A DNA stretch of 64,000 bases from positions 744,001-808,000 of the forward strand of contig JAADJZ010000001.1 in assembly GCA_011032825.1 (NCBI GenBank), given 5' to 3'. Made by a program: the position numbers and the translations under genes. Source of the DNA: Massariosphaeria phaeospora. Taxonomy: Eukaryota > Ascomycota > Dothideomycetes > Pleosporales. The notes beneath the pieces are model-generated. The model was given only the letters and a program-made list of their open reading frames with translations, was not told where the DNA came from and did no database searches. Below are positions 52,588 to 63,483 of the stretch, piece after piece (the stretch's first letter is position 1; the number at the start of each line of letters is the position of its first letter).

Positions 52588-55500
52588 ATGGATCACGCTT
52601 CAGCCTTCAGTCGTGATAATCGAGGGTCACAGGTGGGCTACAATGCAGGAAATATCCACAATCACTATCCCGACCCGGGAAACCCCGGTCAGTATTACGC
52701 TACTCAAGCTGAAACCATCATTGATTTGCGCTCTCAGCTGAGGACACTTGTGCGGAACTTCTCTACCTCACCGACCCGGAGGTCGATCGAGAAGACATCC
52801 GGATTGAGAAAGGAGATCGCACAGCCGGTACATGCGAATGGATCCTAGAAGACTCCGACTACATAGCTTGGCTGGCATCTGATTCAGGCTCCCTGTGGCT
52901 AAGTGGTAGCCCTGGCAAAGGGAAGACGGTCCTTTCCGTGTTTGTAACAGAGAAGCTCGAAGAGACTCACGACCAAAACACTTGTGTTGTACTTTATTTT
53001 TTCTGTCGCTACAACGACGAAAAGCAAAATACCGCGGTAGCTGTGCTGCGAGGTCTGTTATTCCAACTTCTTCGGAAGAGGCCCTTTCTAGGAAAATACG
53101 CGTCCCCTCCATTGAGAAAAAGCCAGGCTCAACATACTCTCTCTTCCTTAGGTATTCTCTGGAAGATCTTCGCAGATATGATCAATGACCCCGGTATCGA
53201 CCATGTCATATGTGTGATCGATGGACTGGATGAATGTGATTTCGATTCACGCAAGCAACTATCGAAACTCTTTTTCTCTGACAAGAAATCCGCTTGGACC
53301 AACAAGTTTAAGTTATTTGGCCTCAGCCGACCTCTCCAGGTGCTGTATTTTGAACCTAAGCGTCACATCCGAATGGATACCGAGAAGATTATGGAATCGC
53401 GGGCGGATGTGAAAAAGTTTATCGAATTCTCTATACAGAACTTGTCACTGATAAGGGATTTTGGCCAGATTGAGACCGAAGTACGAATACAACTCCTTCG
53501 AAAAGCGAAAGAAACATTTCTTTGGGTCGGACTATTGATGCAAGAGCTGGAGAAGAAGAGCACATGTCTGGATATTCTAGATGCCTTGGAAGAGAGCCCC
53601 ACGGGATTAACTGCGTTATATTTTCGCTTTCTGAGTCAAATCGACGGACGTCGTGGTGGAAGTTGCTCCAGGATCCTACGCTGGATTTCCGAAATTCATC
53701 GTCCACTCACACTAGCCGAACTAGCGGATGCTTTAGGATATACATCATCTCGGGGACTAAGCGCCACCGCAATCCTTCATTCTCACTTGGATGCTTGCGG
53801 ATCTCTGATCCAAATCAAGCCAGCGAAAAGGGAGAATATTTTCTTCAGAACACCAATGTGTGGAAATTACTCGCGTGTTTACAGATATTTGCATATTCCA
53901 CTAAAGTAGAACCTCACCGTCATCTACTATGAACGCTTTCGAGAAGAAGAGATAGGGCCTATCCTTTTGAACCACAAGGAAGACAATGTATTCGTTCAGT
54001 ACATTCCAGAACCCAAACAGGAGTTTGTCATAATGTTAGTGCACGTAAGTTTGAAGGACTACTTGCGCAACATCGAGAGCAACAATCCTAGCGTCGACCA
54101 ATTTCGAATTGACGAGAGACCCTCACACCTTGAGATTTCCCAGAGATGTTTGGCATACTTGTCTACGAGCATGCTGAAAACCAACTGGACATGTTTCAAC
54201 CTCGACCACATTAAAAGTCAATCACCGTTCTTGTTCTATGCTGCAATCTTTTGGATCACGCATGCATTGAAAACACCTGGAGCTGGTCTGGAGCTTTACG
54301 ATCCACTTTCGCCTTTCCTATCGGCAGATTCTCCTTTACGCTTGAACTGGTTCTTGTCCTACTTCCTGGAAGTGGACAAAATCGCTTTCATCAGACACTA
54401 TGGTGCGCGACGAACCGAGTTACCCCTTCTCCATATGGCCGCCTTTTTCAACCTGAATACATGGGTTGATGAAATTCTTATCAACACTAGCAACGGAATC
54501 AGGTGTCAAATCCTGAACACACGTGACGAGACTAATCAAACTCCGCTTATGTATGCTATTGACACAAAAGACGAGTCTTTGGTCAAGAAGCTGATTGGGT
54601 ACGGGGCTAAGGCTGATGGGGACACCCTCCGATGGGCTACTCACAGCATCAATATTTTACAATACATTATTGAGCGAGTAGAGGCCAATCTCTTGAGCAC
54701 GATCGGAATATCGGCTTTGTTGGATGCGACGGCTCAGGCAAATCATACAGCAGTGAAGTTGCTCGCAGAGGTAGGCGTTTATCTGAACACACCAACAATG
54801 TACAGTTTACTGCAAGGACGTGTAAAGATCACACCGCTTCAGCTTGCCACTTATGTTGGGGCGGAAAAAGTAGTGCGGAATCTTCTTCAGTTCGGTTGTC
54901 ATCGTGGGGACGTACTCATCGCGCTTAGACTTATCCATTCACGGACTACCGATGCAGTTGTCTTGATGCTACTAGAACAGGTCCCAGACGATCTGCATCG
55001 ATTAAGGGGTCCCATCATCCATAAAGCTATACAGCACGGCTTGAGGGAAACCTTTAATTATCTAACACGGAGCGATGCCGATTTTCAGTACCAAAATGAC
55101 CTCGGCATCACAGCTCTGCACCTCGCTATAGAGTCTGGTGATCAAGCTATCACCGACGTGATCTTGTCCCGTGGTGGGGCCTTCGATCGCAGTGCTGCGA
55201 CTTGGAATTCGACTCTCTGTAACGCTGCATTCGCGGGTCGCATATGGGGGGTCAAGTTTCTCTTTGAAAATGGCATAGATGTCAACAAAATGAGCGTCGA
55301 AGGCTGGTTTCCACTCACTGTAGCAGTAATGGGGAACCATCTCCAGACGATCAGATTCCTGCTCAACAAAACCACAGACATTAGTCAAGCCGACAAATAT
55401 GGTAGAACTGCGCTGATGGCCGCAGCAATCACCGGAAATGAGACAGTTATTAAGATGCTTATACAGCAAGGCTCGCTAATCGATATGGTTGACATATTAA

Positions 55501-56015
55501 AGAACACCGCCCTTCACTATGCTGCGCTTGAGAGGCATGAGAAGGGGATGGAGATCTTACATCGACATCACGCTGACACGTCACTCAAGAATTTATTTAA
55601 AAAGACCGCGACAGATCATCAGAGTACCCTTGATGATGTTGATCACGTTGAAAGTCGTCATCGACACGTACCCAACCGGACCAACACGACAGTTATTTAC
55701 CTTCGCACTGGCATTATGTCGTCGGCAAATTTTGGTCCCGTATACTCGGAAGTCCTTGCATGGGCCAGACTGCAGGCAACGCTTACACAACACAGATTTG
55801 TTGTACTTCACCAGAGCGAAGGTGGTTTACAACACAAAAGAGTAGGGTGTTGCCAGTACTCCTATACCCAACCCCTTCTGCGATTAACCAAAATTGCACA
55901 TGAAACTGAGAGCGCTGAAATAACCTGTATAAAGTTTTCTCCTTCCGAAGATTCTTTGGGCTTTTACATGTACCTTGCCCCATCGGGTATTCGCCGGAAA
56001 ATTGCGGCCCCATAA
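52588..56015 (+). CDS. NLR1: amyloid-motif / NACHT / ankyrin-repeat receptor
   Basis: About 1098 aa in the two-intron model. Intron 1 (52688-52737, 50 bp, GTCAGT donor) joins a short N-terminus to the NACHT linker 'ELLYLTDPEVDREDI'. The N-terminal motif 'NRGSQVGYNAGNIHNHY' fills residues 11-27. The NACHT domain has Walker A 'GSPGKGKT' and Walker B 'VICVIDGLDECD'; a winged-helix region ends near 'HVSLKDYLRN'. About eight ankyrin repeats follow ('QTPLMYAIDTKDE', 'ITALHLAIESGDQ', 'RTALMAAAITGNE', 'NTALHYAALERHE'). An in-frame TAG at 53907 is removed if 53875-53955 (81 bp, GTGTTT donor) is an intron; otherwise the gene is interrupted. Role by analogy: a cytosolic non-self sensor that triggers cell death through the HeLo protein encoded next to it. 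Confidence 0.82.
52618..52668 (+). other. Amyloid-signalling-like motif at the NLR1 N-terminus
   Basis: Encodes 'NRGSQVGYNAGNIHNHY'. It has the spacing NRG-x-Q-[LV]-G-x-N-x-G-N-[MI]-x-N-x-[FY], shared with the C-terminus of the HeLo protein (56921-56971), with 9 of 17 identities. The Gly/Asn/Gln pattern resembles the sigma-type motifs of fungal NLR/HeLo pairs; assignment to that class is my inference. Confidence 0.7.
53875..53955 (+). other. Probable intron of NLR1 covering an in-frame stop codon
   Basis: The NLR1 frame is the same on both sides (ends differ by a multiple of three) but TAG at 53907-53909 interrupts it. GTGTTT at 53875 and GATAG at 53951-53955 define an 81-bp intron that keeps the frame. 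The donor is non-ideal, so a true nonsense mutation remains possible. Confidence 0.5.
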
Positions 56016-56226
56016 GGCCTAACCGCTTACCGCAGTAGTATATCCGCGATATTAGATGACAGAAACGTCCTATCAAAGAGGTTATAAGCCTATAAGTGGC
56101 AGGTGATATCTGAAACACACATGATCCACCATGCGACGTGTCCCGGGTCTAATGGAGGTGCTCGTGATCATCACTAGCTATCTATAATACAGCGAGATTC
56201 TTCCCACAATTCTTTCTCGTCTCATC
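56016..56226. promoter_or_regulatory. Short promoter region of the HeLo gene
   Basis: 211 bp between NLR1 and the HeLo gene in the same orientation. A TATA-like 'ctataata' lies near 56182-56189. The tight spacing favours a common regulatory neighbourhood. Confidence 0.4.
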
Positions 56227-56986
56227 ATGACAGAGGTAGCAGGATTGGTTATTGGATTACCATCTTTATTCAGCAGTGCACTCGAATGCTTCCAGTACGT
56301 TCGTCTGGGACGGGAGTTTGCCGGCGACTTCGAGACCTGTCAGCTAAAGCTCGATCTCGCAGGACTGGGCCTTTCTCGTTGGGGTAAATCCATCGGGCTA
56401 GATAAGGTGGAGCTACTTGAAGAATTGCCGATTCCGAAGTCTGAGGCGGTTACTTCGCGTGACGTCCTCAAGCGCATCTTGAAATTGTTTGGCGATGCAG
56501 AGACAAAGTCAAAGACGTTGAGTGAGCCGATTACAGAACACAAAACTACGTCCCGAGCCACCGAACTACACACAACTACAAAGTCTGACGATTGAAAGAA
56601 CTAATAGAAGATACAAGTCCAAAGAGGGGTTGGGTTCAAAGGTTCAGTGGGCCCTCTACAAACGCGACGAATACGTGAAGATTGTTGATACAATCAACGA
56701 ACTGGTAAACGATCTCGTTGACCTCTTTTCGAGCGAATCCATCACCAAAGAACAACAACGTCTCTGCGACGAGGAAGCTGCCATACTCGCCGAGCAGAAA
56801 GAGTCACTTGACATATTACATAAGGCCCTCGAAGACAAAGACAAACTACTTAAGGATGCTCTATTGAAGACTGCCGCAACTACCCATCAGAACACGGTGA
56901 CTTTTAGTGGAGAAGGAAATCGAGGATTGCAACTGGGACAGAACTATGGGAATATGTCGAATTCATTTGGTGGGTCGGGAGGTTGA
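56227..56986 (+). CDS. HeLo-domain protein with C-terminal amyloid motif, putative cell-death executioner
   Basis: 218 aa if the 103-bp intron 56522-56624 (GTGAGC donor, ACTAAT branch) is used, which restores the frame between two overlapping open stretches. The N-terminus 'MTEVAGLVIGLPSLFSSALE' with the following 'CFQYVRLGREFAGDFETCQL' is the hallmark of the HeLo (HET-S/LOP-B) domain, whose first helix inserts into membranes. The middle is helical: 'VQWALYKRDEYVKIVDTINE'. The C-terminus 'NRGLQLGQNYGNMSNSF' matches the NLR1 N-terminal motif. In known pairs the receptor amyloid templates this tail, and the HeLo domain then permeabilises the plasma membrane. The exact intron borders are not certain; the two ends of the protein are. 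Confidence 0.8.
56921..56971 (+). other. Amyloid-signalling-like motif at the HeLo protein C-terminus
   Basis: Encodes 'NRGLQLGQNYGNMSNSF' just before the Gly/Ser end of the protein. It pairs with the NLR1 motif at 52618-52668, with conservative changes at hydrophobic positions (L/V, M/I, F/Y). Confidence 0.7.
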
Positions 56987-57446
56987 GGGCTAGGCCTTCA
57001 CACCGGATCTTTAGTCTTGTAGTTAATAGTACTACTGTGTATCTTTCCAGATTGTCGAGCATTCTGAGCCTCATTGTACTGACTATACTTAGAGATTTCT
57101 ATGTTTTGATAATACCATAATGGGAATGCCAACATCAAACTTCCAGTTTCCTTCCACCTTAATGTTCTTCAACTCACTATGTGCGCTTAGGGTATAAGCA
57201 ATCAAAATACTCGTAAATGTTACCCAATATCATAAGACCTCCACTTCCTATTTTCAGATGACTGTACAAACCTGAACCGTGATTGTTTGGTTGGTGCTCA
57301 CAAGCATTCATCATGTGTACAACTTCGTCACGCTCCTAAGTTGGCAACCAACGTTATGCAGTATTTAAGCCCAAGGTCCCGGCCACTTGTGGTGTCACCG
57401 CAGCTTACTTGCGTCCCGCTCAGCTTCAGCTTTTAAGATCTTGGCA
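56987..57446. promoter_or_regulatory. Promoter region of NLR2
   Basis: 460 bp of AT-rich sequence. A TATA-like 'gtatttaag' lies at 57360-57368, about 80 bp upstream of the chosen ATG. No coding frame extends the NLR2 N-terminus toward an amyloid motif. Confidence 0.45.
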
Positions 57447-60400
57447 ATGGCGAACCAAGCAGCGCCTTCAACCTCCACTGGTGAGTTCCGGCGGCTCAGG
57501 TATGAAAATTGGGATATCACTAACACATAGCTATCAAGCACAAGAGCCCGACGAGCCGACTCGCGAAGAGTGCCTCACGATACTGCGTGATTTCAACCCT
57601 GACGACGATCGTTCACGGATCCGGGCCGCGATAGGACGAAGAACTAACAAAGCTTGCGAGTGGTTGTTACATGATCAAAAATATCAAGCTTGGGTAAAGA
57701 GAGATACTGATCGCTTGTGGATATCTGGTAGTACGGGGATAGGGAAGACGGCGTTGTCGCTCTTTGTCACAGAAAGACTAGAGAAAAACAAGGATAACTC
57801 AAAAGTTCTCTATTTTTTCTGCAGCGGTCAAGATTCCAACCGCAGTTCTGCCTTCGCAATCATACGAAGCTGGCTGTACCAACTGCTCTATCAGACACCC
57901 GGCCTTCCGAGGAACATTGTAACGATCTTTTCGAAACCTATCCAGCTTCTCGAGGCTTGTAGACAGCCCAGAATACTATGGAATGCCTTTCGGTTCATCT
58001 TACGAGATCATTCTTCTGGCATAACATATTGTGTATTCGATGGACTCCACGAATGCGATATCACCACAAAGGCTACTATGCTAGACTTGATTTCCAGCCA
58101 CTTTCCTCATAGGTGTCCTTCAGGAGAAAGGAACAAGTGCAAGCTTCTGATCACTAGTGAAGACGACAAACCCCCATCAGGGTTCATCTCTATCAATCTA
58201 GAAAAGGAACACAAGAGCGGAATTCAGAAAGACCTTGAAATTTTACTTGAAGATAGACTCACAAAAGAAGTATTACTTCACCACGACACTCACCCAGGCA
58301 TCACGGTTCAGCGATTCAGAGCTTTACTTCTGCGCTATACAAGTGGAGGAACAAACCACCTTCTAGCCACCCTTATGTTAGACTGGCAGAAGGTCGAAGG
58401 AGATGCTGTCTTCTGGTTTATGTTGCATCAAGTCTACGGCTCGGAGCCAGGCATAAAAGAAAAAAGTGAGACAATCGAATCTGTAGTTGAGAAACTTGCA
58501 GAAGGCCAACACATTCTTCAGGACCACCTCACAGAAGGATTTGATAGAGGCAGTTTGAGGAGTCGCGATCCAAATCAAGAACTCGAATTGTTCTACCAAC
58601 ACATCCTAGAGTCCGTACAAGAGGATTTACAAAAGGACTGTTATTTACTACTACGATTGTTGTGTACCGCTGCATCGCCGCTTACGGCGGAAGACTTGGT
58701 CCACATAATGTTGCCTGATATGGATCCAATATCCCTTGCGGTCGAACGAGAGACTGATAATACAGAGTCAAGAGATGAAGAGTCGCACGCCACGAATTTG
58801 AAGCCCACAGATGACGCTGAATATAGGAACCAAAAGGGCAAAAGTGTTGCTAGCGATGACTCAAAAGCTACTCTCGCTATGAAAACTTTTGATAATATCC
58901 TGGAATCCTGTTATCCGCTTATCCGGCGCCAAAAGAGTTCCGAAAGTGATAAAACCGAGCTTGTCTTCGTTCACTACTCAGTAAGGGAATACCTAGTAAG
59001 CAATAACAACGATCGGCTTCCAAGCCAGATTGGTCTGCATCTAGAAAATACCCACGTACTGCTTGCGAAAGCCTGTATCAACGCTATCTGTAACCAGAAT
59101 GCTACCAACCCGTCGGCATACCTGTGGAAGAAGGGTTCCCAGCATGTTCCACCGTTTCTGCAGTACGCTGTGCAGAACTGGTTCAAGCACGTTAAGCTCT
59201 TGGGGTCGTCCTCCGACGGTCTCTACGATCTTGAAAGGTTCCTTTTCAGAGATCAAAACGACTTGCGTAGATGGTGGCGTACCTGGATACGCGACCGATA
59301 CGGACTCTTGCCGAACCAGGTTGAGATGATCCCTGTGACCTCACCAACACACATCTACGCAGGCTTCGGCCTAACACATTGGCTCAAAAGGCATGTCAGA
59401 GAATTACGCGGATCTGATCGACAAATACGGGAAGCACACCTAAAGTGGCCAGATTTACGGTATCATAGCCCCCTTACTTGGGCTTTAAGGGAAGGTCAAC
59501 TCGATACAGTTGAGTGGCTCTGCCAGAATGGCGTGAAATTGAATCAATATGATCTTCCTCATGCAGTTCTGGCTGGTCTAAGCTTTTTCTGTAGCGTTCT
59601 AGACCTTCTTCAACCTATCACCCCGGATATGGACGGCTTCTTGTCCGTTTTTAGAGCGGCGATCAGACTGCGGCGGCCTGAAATCATTCACCATATTCTC
59701 AACTCACACACAATTTTAGGTGAGGATTTGCATACCTTATCGAATGATTCTCTTCAAAAGGCTGTTGAGTACGGACACCGGGACCTATTTCAGACGTTAC
59801 TGAAGCATTCTATACCCGGGGTTGATCTTGAAAGACTTCTGCCACGTGCTGCAAGTATGGTGGAAGAGGGTATTGCGCTCGACATGCTCAGTCAAGAGCC
59901 ATGGAAATCTCTTGCAGATACATCCATGGACATGGCGGACGCACTGAACTCGGCCATATATGCTAGGTGCCCATTACTGGTGGATAGCCTGATGGAAAAG
60001 ACAAACATCATTTGTGAAGATCCACAAGGGTATAGAGCTTTCGAGGCCGCCATATATGCGAAAGATATAACCGTTATGCACCGCCTTATCACAAAGAGAA
60101 ATTACAAACCAAAGCGCATGGATCAGCACGGCGGTAAAGAAGATGACGACGCACTATCTGTTGCAATAGAGTGCGGATCTCTGGAGCTTACAAAAGCTTT
60201 GGTCGGAACTAGTACAAGCATTGGCCAGCTAGGGTGCTATACAGCCTTACATCGGGCAGCTGAGCACGGCCAAACTGATATAGCGAAATACTTGATAGGT
60301 AAGATGACTCAACTGGATTTACCCGTAGCTCCACCAGGACTGCCTGAGTTGATATCGAAAACGCCTCTAATTCTTGCTGCTCAAGGTGGACATGTCGATA

Positions 60401-60558
60401 TTGTTCAAGAACTTCTTGCTCGGGGTGCTGATACAGGGATTGTAGATGGAGAGGGTAGAACAGCGTTAACGTGGGCGAAGAAAAAGAAACGCAAGAGAGT
60501 TGTGGAGATACTAGAGGCACATGAGGTTAAACAGGCTGTTTCTGGAGGAAATAAATAG
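57447..60558 (+). CDS. NLR2: NACHT-ankyrin protein without recognised effector motif
   Basis: Two exons, 1017 aa: exon 1 encodes 'MANQAAPSTST', and an intron at 57481-57538 (58 bp, GTGAGT donor, AAG acceptor) leads into 'EPTREECLTILRDFNPDDDR', the same pre-NACHT linker as in NLR1. Walker A is 'GSTGIGKT'; Walker B reads 'YCVFDGLHECD', with His where NLR1 has Asp. A winged-helix region ends near 'HYSVREYLV'. The C-terminal half is helical, with degenerate ankyrin-like units early and clear ones at the end ('YTALHRAAEHGQTDIAKYL', 'KTPLILAAQGGHVDIVQEL', 'RTALTWAKKK'). No HeLo, lipase, nucleosidase or amyloid segment is visible. It may be a co-receptor or a paralogue that lost its effector tag. 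Open throughout. Confidence 0.85.
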
Positions 60559-60752: not shown

Positions 60753-62447
60753 CTACAGTTTCTTCCGAAGTTTCTGTTGTCCCTCTTTCTCCTTCTGCCT
60801 CGCGCGCATATCCGGTGTAGTCTGGTCACTCGGAATCTGGGACCTCCGCTCTCCATGCCGGCGATTATCTACAGGATCGTCCAGTTCTGGCATCGTGGCG
60901 GGAATGCTACCACGACCCGGCATCCTAGAGAGGCCCCGCATAGTCAAATCACCATGACTGTCAATACCATTTCGGCCAGTCGGAACCCCAGTCGTTGGTA
61001 AGCGAGGTGGGTCGTTCATTGCACGCCCGTATAATTCCCATTCCCGCCGATGGATCGATCGGTCTTCCCTGCCCATAACGGTCGTGGTTGGGGTACCATG
61101 AGCGATCTCGGAAGGGAGAGGGGAGTCTAAGCCGTTGAGCGGTACACCTTCTGATGATAGGTGGTGAAGCATGTCAGGTAGTTCTGAGTCATCTGGAGTC
61201 TCGCTTGTATCTGATTTTGGGCGAAACCCGAAAGAGGCTACGCTGTGAGAGGTAAGCATGTCGTTCACGGTAGGTGATGAACCGGAAAGCTGGCGATCAG
61301 ATGGCGAGTAGGGCGGTGGGTTAGATTCTGCGCCAGAGGTGAGCGGTACAGTGGGAGAAACAAAGTCGCTACTCGCGGGAAACTCGTCCATCATAGACCG
61401 ATTCGACCGGTTGGAGGAAGCAGTAGGGCTAGCCGTCGAATCGTGGATGCGTTGACGAGCCCGAACGTCATGTTGCTGCCTTGAACCTGTCCCAGAACGC
61501 GAATCACGCGATTTCCGCGATTTCCGCGAGTTTCTTGTCGATTTAGATCGGCTTTCATTTGAGTAAAGACCATTCAACGCGGCAGATTTGAAGTGACCAC
61601 TGGTTGCTGACCTTGAAGAAGTACGATGAGATCGGTCTCTGGAGTGTCCCGGTGTGACAGCATGTACGCGGTCCGAATGCAATGAATCTGCTCGCTTCGT
61701 GCGCCCGGATACTAACTCAGACAAGTGTTCGCGGGTCAAGGTACCATCGGCCAGATGATGCGCTACATCTCGAACAGAAGACCGTCCCGATTCAGAGTGC
61801 GCATCCTCACTTCTACCATAGGCTGAGTCAACGTCTGAGATCGGTTCTTTTGTGCTACCCTTCGAAATGCCCAGTATTTGTTTCAGTAAACTAGGCTTAC
61901 TGCTCGACTTCTGCGGTGGCTCTTCAGTGGATGGCAAACGATTGTGGGCTCGCTGAACACGGGAGCTGTGATCGCCACTCTCACCGTTCCTTCCCGATCT
62001 AAGAACAGTGGTGTTGAAGGTAGGATTTATATTTACGGTACCGTAGTTGTGGATGGTATAGGGCGGTGGTGGACTCGAAGGCGGATTCGGGACTTCCATG
62101 CCTCTATTGGGGGCCGAAGACGGCGTTGACCCTACTGGAAGGGGGGGACTTCTGAGATTTCGATTTCGATTTGTCTCCCGTTCGAGAGCCTGATGGTCTG
62201 CAGTTATACCAATTTGAACCATTGCCCTGCGATGAGCAGCATCAGCGTCTTCTTTGAACGTCTTGAGGCTGATCTGCTGCGCCATCTTCACTGCGCCATC
62301 CTCAGCGAGGTCTTTTCTCTCCTCTTGCGCCAAAGTGCGTAGACTGTCAGCCATAGCCTTATCCATGTCTGCATTTTCGTTTCTGTCATCCTTTCCACGA
62401 TCGTTGTTATGTGATCCTCCATTAGGAGAGTACTCCGCGTGTCCCAT
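60753..62447 (-). CDS. Disordered Ser/Arg-rich protein with an 'NYGTVNIN' segment, unknown function
   Basis: Single coding exon, 564 aa from ATG 62447 ('MGHAEYSPNGGSHNND'). A 53-bp intron with GTAAGT donor and CCAG acceptor ends one base upstream of the ATG, so a spliced 5' leader is likely. The protein begins with a charged helical stretch ('MADSLRTLAQEERKDLAEDG', then a Lys/Glu-rich helix). Around residues 128-145 it has the uncharged stretch 'YTIHNYGTVNINPTFN', and the rest is low-complexity, rich in Ser, Arg, Pro and Asp, with an Arg/Ser/Lys tract ('STRNSRKSRKSRDSR'). I recognise no enzyme or binding domain. It is convergent with NLR2 (about 195 bp apart). Confidence 0.65.
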   Translation of the reverse strand: MGHAEYSPNGGSHNNDRGKDDRNENADMDKAMADSLRTLAQEERKDLAEDGAVKMAQQISLKTFKEDADAAHRRAMVQIGITADHQALERETNRNRNLRSPPLPVGSTPSSAPNRGMEVPNPPSSPPPPYTIHNYGTVNINPTFNTTVLRSGRNGESGDHSSRVQRAHNRLPSTEEPPQKSSSKPSLLKQILGISKGSTKEPISDVDSAYGRSEDAHSESGRSSVRDVAHHLADGTLTREHLSELVSGRTKRADSLHSDRVHAVTPGHSRDRSHRTSSRSATSGHFKSAALNGLYSNESRSKSTRNSRKSRKSRDSRSGTGSRQQHDVRARQRIHDSTASPTASSNRSNRSMMDEFPASSDFVSPTVPLTSGAESNPPPYSPSDRQLSGSSPTVNDMLTSHSVASFGFRPKSDTSETPDDSELPDMLHHLSSEGVPLNGLDSPLPSEIAHGTPTTTVMGREDRSIHRREWELYGRAMNDPPRLPTTGVPTGRNGIDSHGDLTMRGLSRMPGRGSIPATMPELDDPVDNRRHGERRSQIPSDQTTPDMRARQKEKEGQQKLRKKL

Positions 62448-63483
62448 GCTGGATTGCAAAAGAGTATCCGGTATGGGGACTCTTGGCCAGTACAGACTTA
62501 CTAATCGCAGCCGAAGATACAACCGGAATGCTTGTGGGGCGGGTGGATGTTGGGAAGCTTGTGTAGGAGTTGTCGTGTATGCACAACACTGGAATATTAT
62601 AATGAGGAGAACTTAAAAGCGACCATGGAAATTATGAAGAACCATACTTGGTGACTCTGCTATCGAATCGAGCCCCAAGTGAATGGGTTTGACTCTAGCC
62701 TGGTCCTCAAAGCCAGCTCTTCCTGAGAGTGAAACGCAGGTACTGAAGTCACGGGGCTACCTGCGAGTTTCTAAGTATCTTGTGACTATTCTGTGTCAAC
62801 TTAAAGAGTTACAACATATTTCTTATTGACCTATAGTCTAGACAGGAGGGTTAGTGTCTCTCTTGCCTCCTCGTGCACTAAGGGAATCTTCGTGCGATAG
62901 ATTTCGTTCAAAATGAACTCTTATTACAGCTTGTGTCACCCCTAGGACGTTGCCATGTACCCACAGCACAATGTCTTGAAGGAAGGGTAGAATGAAGACT
63001 AGTTAGTCGTTAGACAGTACATGTTCATTGGCTCTATGATCTACAATGCGAGATGGCAGAATGTTTACTGACGAGTTAAACCTTTGATAAACCTTTCCAA
63101 GGTGTTGGTCTAATGCTCTAAAATTGGACTAGCTTCGTATGCTATCTCACTTTGAATCGGTTCACCCAGTCACTTATAGAATTGAACTTCAACAACGTTG
63201 TGTATATTACCCATTCTACATTCGTCTTGTAGCTACTAGTATGCTACGACCTGAATAAAATCGCTATATCAGCTTCTAGAACCCGGCTCGCTTACCCTAG
63301 ACAGTGGCACTTGAACTTATGCCAGTTCTTCCACTTTGGGTCGTGCAGATACGAACGCCTGATGCACTCCTTAAATGATGCAGCCCCGGGAACAAGACTC
63401 GTTCAAAACGCGATTTTTCACAGTCTCATCGCTTCAAAATCCACGCTCCAAGTTTTGCCAAGTTTGAGACTCAGCTTGTCAGT
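62448..63483. promoter_or_regulatory. Divergent promoter region between the disordered-protein and CFEM-like genes
   Basis: About 1 kb, AT-richer. It contains the spliced 5' leader of the minus-strand gene near 62447-62530. No other gene seen. Confidence 0.4.

Follow-up and report, generated by a model that had tools for sequence, protein, structure and literature searches.

Introduction

Among the described fungal systems that resemble the locus reported here, PNT1/HELLP of Podospora anserina and Chaetomium globosum is close in layout: the gene of a NOD-like receptor (NLR) adjoins that of a membrane-targeting executioner, and a pseudo-palindromic (PP) motif is found both at the N-terminus of the NLR and at the C-terminus of the executioner. 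According to section 8 of PMC3321046, the PP motif has the consensus FxGx(x)NxGLQLxGxNxGxL; its core is written as NxGxQxGxN in PMC9815663, where the main PP motif is counted in 296 NLRs (Table 1) and PP motifs are described with pore-forming as well as enzymatic effectors (section 24). The present work deals with a locus of Massariosphaeria phaeospora, an ascomycete of the Pleosporales, contained in a stretch of 64,000 nucleotides (C1:744001-808000, hereafter the window), in which a receptor gene, NLR1, stands next to a HeLo gene. These adjacent genes, deposited as P0003 (NLR1) and P0001 (HeLo), have an amyloid-type motif in common and are best explained as receptor and executioner of one signalosome, which is what a first-pass annotation of this DNA had proposed. 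It is likely that this signalosome is of the PP amyloid type, comparable to PNT1/HELLP, from which it differs in that its executioner has a classical HeLo domain and its receptor is a NACHT-ankyrin protein. The assembly of the same organism (42.08 Mb, 51 contigs) was also searched.

A Motif Shared by Two Adjacent Genes

NLR1 occupies positions 52588 to 56015 of the window and the HeLo gene positions 56227 to 56986, both on the forward strand, with about 210 bases between the NLR1 stop and the HeLo ATG. The amyloid-type motif of NLR1, FSRDNRGSQVGYNAGNIHNHY, spans 52606-52668, and that of the HeLo C-terminus spans 56891-56959. Within them, the two 17-residue segments lie where the first-pass annotation had placed them: NRGSQVGYNAGNIHNHY is coded from 52618, as residue 11 of the open reading frame (ORF) that begins with the ATG at 52588, and NRGLQLGQNYGNMSNSF is coded from 56918, followed by GGSGG and a stop ending at 56986. 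The two segments are identical at nine of the 17 positions, as had been claimed; the description of the rest as mostly conservative was overstated, since only three of the eight differing positions score above 0 in BLOSUM62.

The Smith-Waterman score of the two ends is 52, a value reached by none of 20,000 shuffles of either (maxima 50 and 48). The core N.G.Q.G.N is found at only two sites in the six frames of the window, namely the NLR1 N-terminus and the HeLo tail. A profile built from only four motifs, those of two further HeLo/NLR pairs of the genome (on C25 and C31, described below), scores 29.1 bits for the HeLo tail (E 7e-8), 23.9 bits for a HeLo tail from Alternaria, and 13.3 bits for the NLR1 N-terminus (E 0.006). 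This last score was attained by none of 2,000 shuffles and by none of the N-termini of 119 related NLRs (the best of 268 matches). As a control, the upstream regions (900 bases, three frames each) of 20 other NLRs, taken from the 57 other NPHP3_N stretches listed in the genome, were compared with the HeLo tail of C1; the maximum was 35, versus 52 for NLR1. NLR2, the second NLR of the locus, was left out of this control because its upstream stretch includes the HeLo gene itself. In a genome-wide search with the Pfam family Ses_B, the E-value of the NLR1 motif is only 0.23; the motif is convincing not by this value but by where it sits, since it opens an NLR whose neighbor is a HeLo protein with a PP tail.

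Assignment to a Motif Family

Seven motif copies were compared with the full PP pattern, in which M, V, and I were allowed (F.G, then N.G[LM]Q[LV]G.N.G.[LIVM]). Every copy contains the core N.G.Q.G.N, and six of the seven, all but that of NLR1, also fit the full pattern. The sigma motif, which PMC3321046 gives as GxGxQFNxx and GGTQNINT, was searched as its submotifs A (GxGxQFN) and B (GGTQN), which form a threefold repeat, and also in the looser forms GxGxQF and GGxQN; neither the strict nor the looser forms occur in any of the seven copies. Because the PP core is common to all copies and sigma submotifs are missing throughout, the earlier label of sigma-like is wrong and the distinct family that had been considered is superfluous. 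The general richness in Gly, Gln, and Asn, together with a NACHT-ankyrin receptor as in het-eN, would suit a sigma-type or a new amyloid family, but such an assignment is contradicted by the sequence; it was rejected and is hardly credible. Judged by its residues, the shared motif is the PP amyloid motif, related to RHIM, of PNT1/HELLP and of the Arthroderma pairs of HeLo proteins and signal transducing ATPases with numerous domains (STAND). The HET-s prion-forming domain PF11558 gave no match in the genome at E up to 1, in a search in which the controls were silent too.

The HeLo tail meets the full PP pattern and reaches 29.1 bits with Ses_B, above the Pfam cut-off of 23.2 bits (the same for PF14479). 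Against the proposed pairing, the NLR1 motif lacks the G two places after F, has S instead of L before Q, and obtains 17.1 bits with Ses_B, below the cut-off. A match to the profile of a known motif family, proposed as a check in the first-pass annotation, was obtained above the cut-off for the executioner and below it for the receptor. Since it fails both the full consensus and the cut-off, the NLR1 motif is classed as a divergent PP-core motif, and what supports the claim for the receptor is the core, the position, and the neighbor.

Other PP Pairs in the Genome

Ses_B was searched in the whole genome at E up to 10 and in 14 control genomes, among which there was one match, below the cut-off. 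The genome has six Ses_B stretches, all of them within three HeLo/NLR pairs: that of C1, described here, and those of C31 (C31:105275-106429) and C25 (C25:282437-283586; L009, L010, L012, and L013 for the two). The latter pairs consist of divergent genes with full PP motifs, and their receptors carry tetratricopeptide repeats (TPR). In the scanned exon, NACHT scores 21.1 bits in C31, below the cut-off, and is absent in C25. The receptor motifs of both are likely to lie on a separate first exon, with intron ends that are inferred. One genome with three PP pairs and two receptor architectures fits a swapping of receptor bodies behind a motif that has its own exon.

Neighboring motifs agree at nine of the 17 positions in C1, eight in C31, and ten in C25. 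When receptors are compared with executioners within the genome, both C1 motifs match their own neighbor best: the HeLo tail of C1 has seven positions in common with each of the C31 and C25 receptors, and NLR1 six or seven with the HeLo tails of the other two pairs. NLR1 and the HeLo tail of C1 are also mutually best by BLOSUM62 sum (50). Several comparisons weigh on the other side. The HeLo tail of C1 is as similar or more similar to the HeLo tails of C31 (10/17) and C25 (9/17) than to NLR1; NLR1 agrees with the C25 receptor at nine positions, a tie with its own HeLo partner; the HeLo tail of C31 is closer to the C25 receptor (9/17) than to its own neighbor; and one unrelated upstream region scores 44 against the C25 tail, above the 41 of NLR1. 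Pair-specific matching of the motifs among the three pairs is suggestive only.

These figures also bear on the possibility that the HeLo protein of C1 is switched on also, or instead, by the PP receptors of C25 or C31, the branching of such circuits being discussed in a passage of PMC7889193. The core common to all, the seven positions shared with either receptor, and the likeness of the three HeLo tails would permit it. The cognate match is higher, however, and both other HeLo genes adjoin a receptor of their own, and we regard such branching as rather improbable. The three pairs constitute a compact natural set for the study of insulation between parallel PP channels.

Nine HeLo stretches lie at seven places in the genome, and three of these places have a Ses_B tail. 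A further HeLo match, at C34:770221-770929 (G000; L007 and L019), is split into two stretches. In the region C45:38800-47800 (L027), SSKLDIGSVSGTQGAHNLVGNFGNVS, upstream of another NACHT gene, resembles a further short N-terminus of amyloid type.

Conservation in Other Fungi

The search for HeLo homologues, with the second-frame ORF as query and 36 candidates, yielded two matches: the deposited record of the same gene and P0002 of Alternaria ethzedia, the tail of which keeps 14 of the 17 motif positions. For the receptor, residues 1-420 of NLR1 were used; 7,991 candidates were scored and 268 matched, of which the best 120, including NLR1 itself, were listed. Identity to NLR1 is at most 41% among the listed relatives, so that none of them is a clear orthologue. 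PF17046 is listed for none of the 119 other proteins, nor for the record of NLR1 itself. Some of them carry PF17107 or PF01048 in cis, which we take to be sesA and a nucleoside phosphorylase, respectively. Two observations on these relatives count against the reading of NLR1 as a PP receptor: the PP core occurs in none of the 119, and several have other short Gly/Gln motifs at the N-terminus that share GSQ or HNHY with NLR1. With the core absent from the listed relatives, the receptor motif is not a fixed feature of the NACHT family of NLR1. The conservation expected of the paired motif was found on the HeLo side, in the one Alternaria protein, and not on the receptor side, among relatives without a clear orthologue.

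In this context, the N-terminus of NLR1 might belong to an unclassified Gly/Gln/Asn-rich family of the NACHT-ankyrin clade and resemble the HeLo tail in composition only. Homologue N-termini such as QGSQAYVGSFSNCAFG or NHGKLHQGDHYGDVHNHYG contain the same GSQ or HNHY, and P0123, the homologue with the best E-value, scores 41 both against NLR1 and against the HeLo tail. On the contrary, NLR1 scores 52 with its neighbor, above all 119 listed homologues; the core missing from these depends on the order of the residues; and shuffles that keep the composition never attain the score. A likeness of composition only is considered improbable.

At least three short Gly/Gln motifs recur at the N-termini of the NACHT-ankyrin relatives (P0124, P0127, P0130, P0133, and P0136; also P0131, P0135, P0142, and P0180; P0134, P0203, and P0222). 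They are of the types GSQAF.G, EGHATQIVGNVGTVY, and NIGDLTTLGPSNTVNAGVFFNG, with no Pfam family listed, and could be undescribed signaling motifs.

The Receptor Gene

The HeLo, NACHT, and ankyrin domains named in the first-pass annotation are all recovered by Pfam. In NLR1, the PP-core motif is followed by NPHP3_N/NACHT and then by ankyrin repeats (NPHP3_N 136.2 bits, NACHT 28.4 bits, Ank_2 157 bits). The nucleotide-binding domain lies at 52827-53330 (E 1.5e-39) and the repeats at approximately 54430-55600 (Ank_2 in five stretches, 1.8e-46 for the ORF 53910-56012). The first exon (52588-52687) codes MDHASAFSRDNRGSQVGYNAGNIHNHYPDPGNP, and the NACHT part lies beyond an inferred intron of 50 bases (GTCAGT...CTCAG, 52688-52737), which puts the motif on an exon of its own. 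The N-terminus of P0003 is identical to that read from the window, and P0003 has the junction that this splice yields. This intron, an in-frame TAG of NLR1, and a frame change in the HeLo gene are features beyond those of the earlier annotation.

The TAG, at 53907-53909, interrupts the NLR1 ORF and weighs against an intact receptor, although the frame beyond it is open for 701 codons. It is located in an extra segment (approximately 53830-54020) that is probably an intron or an insertion; an intron is likely, because the segment is largely missing in all six aligned homologues. P0003 omits most of it. It also omits about 190 codons of open ankyrin-like sequence at approximately 54430-55010, where this gene model is probably wrong, and for this reason its structure was not relied on. 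The C-terminal half of NLR1 was uninformative as a query, since it returned, besides the deposited record, mostly ankyrin proteins from animals and metagenomes.

The HeLo Gene and Its Reading Frame

The conserved sequence of the HeLo gene is distributed over two reading frames, in both of which PF14479 exceeds its cut-off: model positions 1-105 at 56242-56544 in the first frame (64.7 bits) and model positions 122-203 at 56558-56812 in the second (33.5 bits), with the passage from one to the other at 56540-56560. The N-terminal part also matches the PDB entries 2wvo (E 5.8e-17), 2wvn, and 2wvq, named 'small s protein', which are presumably the HeLo domains of HET-s/HET-S. The change of frame, at about 56544 to 56558, is a point against a working executioner, as the HeLo frame is unbroken in the C25, C31, and Alternaria (P0002) relatives.

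Intron candidates were enumerated at 30 to 130 bases. P0001 (218 residues) fits a splice at 56522-56624, which begins with GTGAGC and contains a CTAAT branch-like stretch, recognized by eye; this splice leaves the PP motif in place but deletes a helix kept in all three relatives (C25, C31, and Alternaria). All GT-AG introns of at least 40 bases that rejoin the frames lose conserved HeLo sequence, which is a further point against an intact gene. The loss differs among the candidates: that of 67 bases (56517-56583) takes away a loop but, of the conserved helix, no more than its start, and one of 34 bases removes less. These cheaper introns (e.g., 56517-56583) have weak-looking 5' ends, and no choice was made among them. 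As each frame-rejoining intron of at least 40 bases has its cost, to a differing extent, the interruption may reflect a true intron, a defective gene, or a mistake in the assembly, or the product may do without the helix, and the executioner of the sequenced strain may or may not have kept its function. AlphaFold2 models of P0001 and P0002, from alignments of four rows, had a mean predicted local distance difference test score (pLDDT) of 38.9 each and were not used.

Taken together, these features raise the question of decay, in which a former pair would have a HeLo pseudogene and a drifting receptor motif. The frame change and the sequence lost by its possible introns point in that direction, as do the unbroken ORFs of the HeLo/PP genes of C25 and C31, the departure of the NLR1 motif, alone among the seven copies, from the full PP pattern, and the TAG in NLR1. 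In contrast, both HeLo halves and the PP tail are open and conserved, so that any break would be of recent date or due to a faulty assembly; a genuine intron, of 67 bases or the less costly 34, is possible; and the TAG lies in an intron-like segment followed by a long open frame. Decay deserves consideration but is doubtful.

A different interpretation of the interrupted gene is that a HeLo protein with a disabled killing domain and an intact PP tail is the counterpart of HET-s in the PP family. The P0001 model, in which the conserved helix is gone and the motif is kept, has the form that this interpretation would have; if it were true, the protein could propagate in prion form or act in the recognition of self and non-self, against strains with an active allele. 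Passages of two papers are relevant here: none of these systems beyond [Het-s] and sigma is said to occur as a natural prion (PMC7889193), and whether HELLP and HELLF have natural variants of this kind is posed as a question (PMC7885112). We consider this counterpart very unlikely.

Surroundings of the Locus

A second NACHT-ankyrin gene, NLR2 (57472-60558), lies directly downstream on the same strand, so that the HeLo gene stands between two NLRs. NLR2 was rejected as the HeLo partner: the 670 bases before its NACHT (56991-57660) contain no such motif, the best score being 24. No tRNA, Rfam match, or plasmid match was found in the window. Further downstream, on the minus strand, an ORF of 619 codons (60753-62612) holds the Asn/Gly-rich TIHNYGTVNINPTFNTTV and has no Pfam match at E up to 0.01.

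Proposed Mechanism and Comparison with Known Systems

The NLR1/HeLo pair has the anatomy that a templating circuit needs, with some doubt about the reading frame of the executioner, and the steps of such a circuit are proposed by analogy with the family. On binding of a ligand to the ankyrin repeats, the NACHT domain would oligomerize, and the N-terminal motifs clustered in this way would form a short cross-beta stack. The stack would then template the tail of the HeLo protein, the HeLo domain of which would expose an N-terminal hydrophobic helix, enter the membrane, and kill the cell. Amyloid templating between the two motifs is probable in view of what is described for PP signaling (PMC7885112 and PMC7889193, in part; PMC3321046, section 8; PMC9815663, sections 19 and 24).

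The first-pass annotation had seen added interest in the combination of NACHT with ankyrin repeats. However, receptors of the NACHT-ANK type with such motifs are already in print, as the text of PMC4986451 indicates. In the open-access literature, no paper on Massariosphaeria phaeospora and NLRs was found.

With respect to the known systems, the differences are mainly of domain architecture. In P. anserina, PNT1/HELLP combines an NB-ARC-TPR receptor with a HeLo-like domain, while NLR1 is a NACHT-ankyrin protein and its partner has a classical HeLo domain (PF14479). The pairs of Arthroderma otae and A. gypseum, as described in section 8 of PMC3321046, consist of a HeLo protein that ends in a short PP motif and an adjacent STAND receptor that carries this motif too, as here; their receptors are NB-ARC-TPR proteins, similar to the TPR receptors of C25 and C31 and unlike NLR1. 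NWD2/HET-S, which is based on the HET-s-related amyloid motif (HRAM), has in common with NLR1/HeLo the HeLo executioner, the NACHT receptor, the sharing of a motif, and the same proposed action, but its motif consists of two 21-residue repeats and its receptor has WD repeats, in place of one short PP motif and ankyrin repeats. The sigma locus het-eN/sesA/sesB of Nectria haematococca also has a NACHT-ankyrin receptor; its effectors are sesA and a predicted lipase, in contrast to the HeLo protein of the present locus, which lacks sigma submotifs. The pair of M. phaeospora is not a new class but one more instance of an immune circuit already described in fungi, and with it the PP family gains a NACHT-ankyrin/HeLo member.

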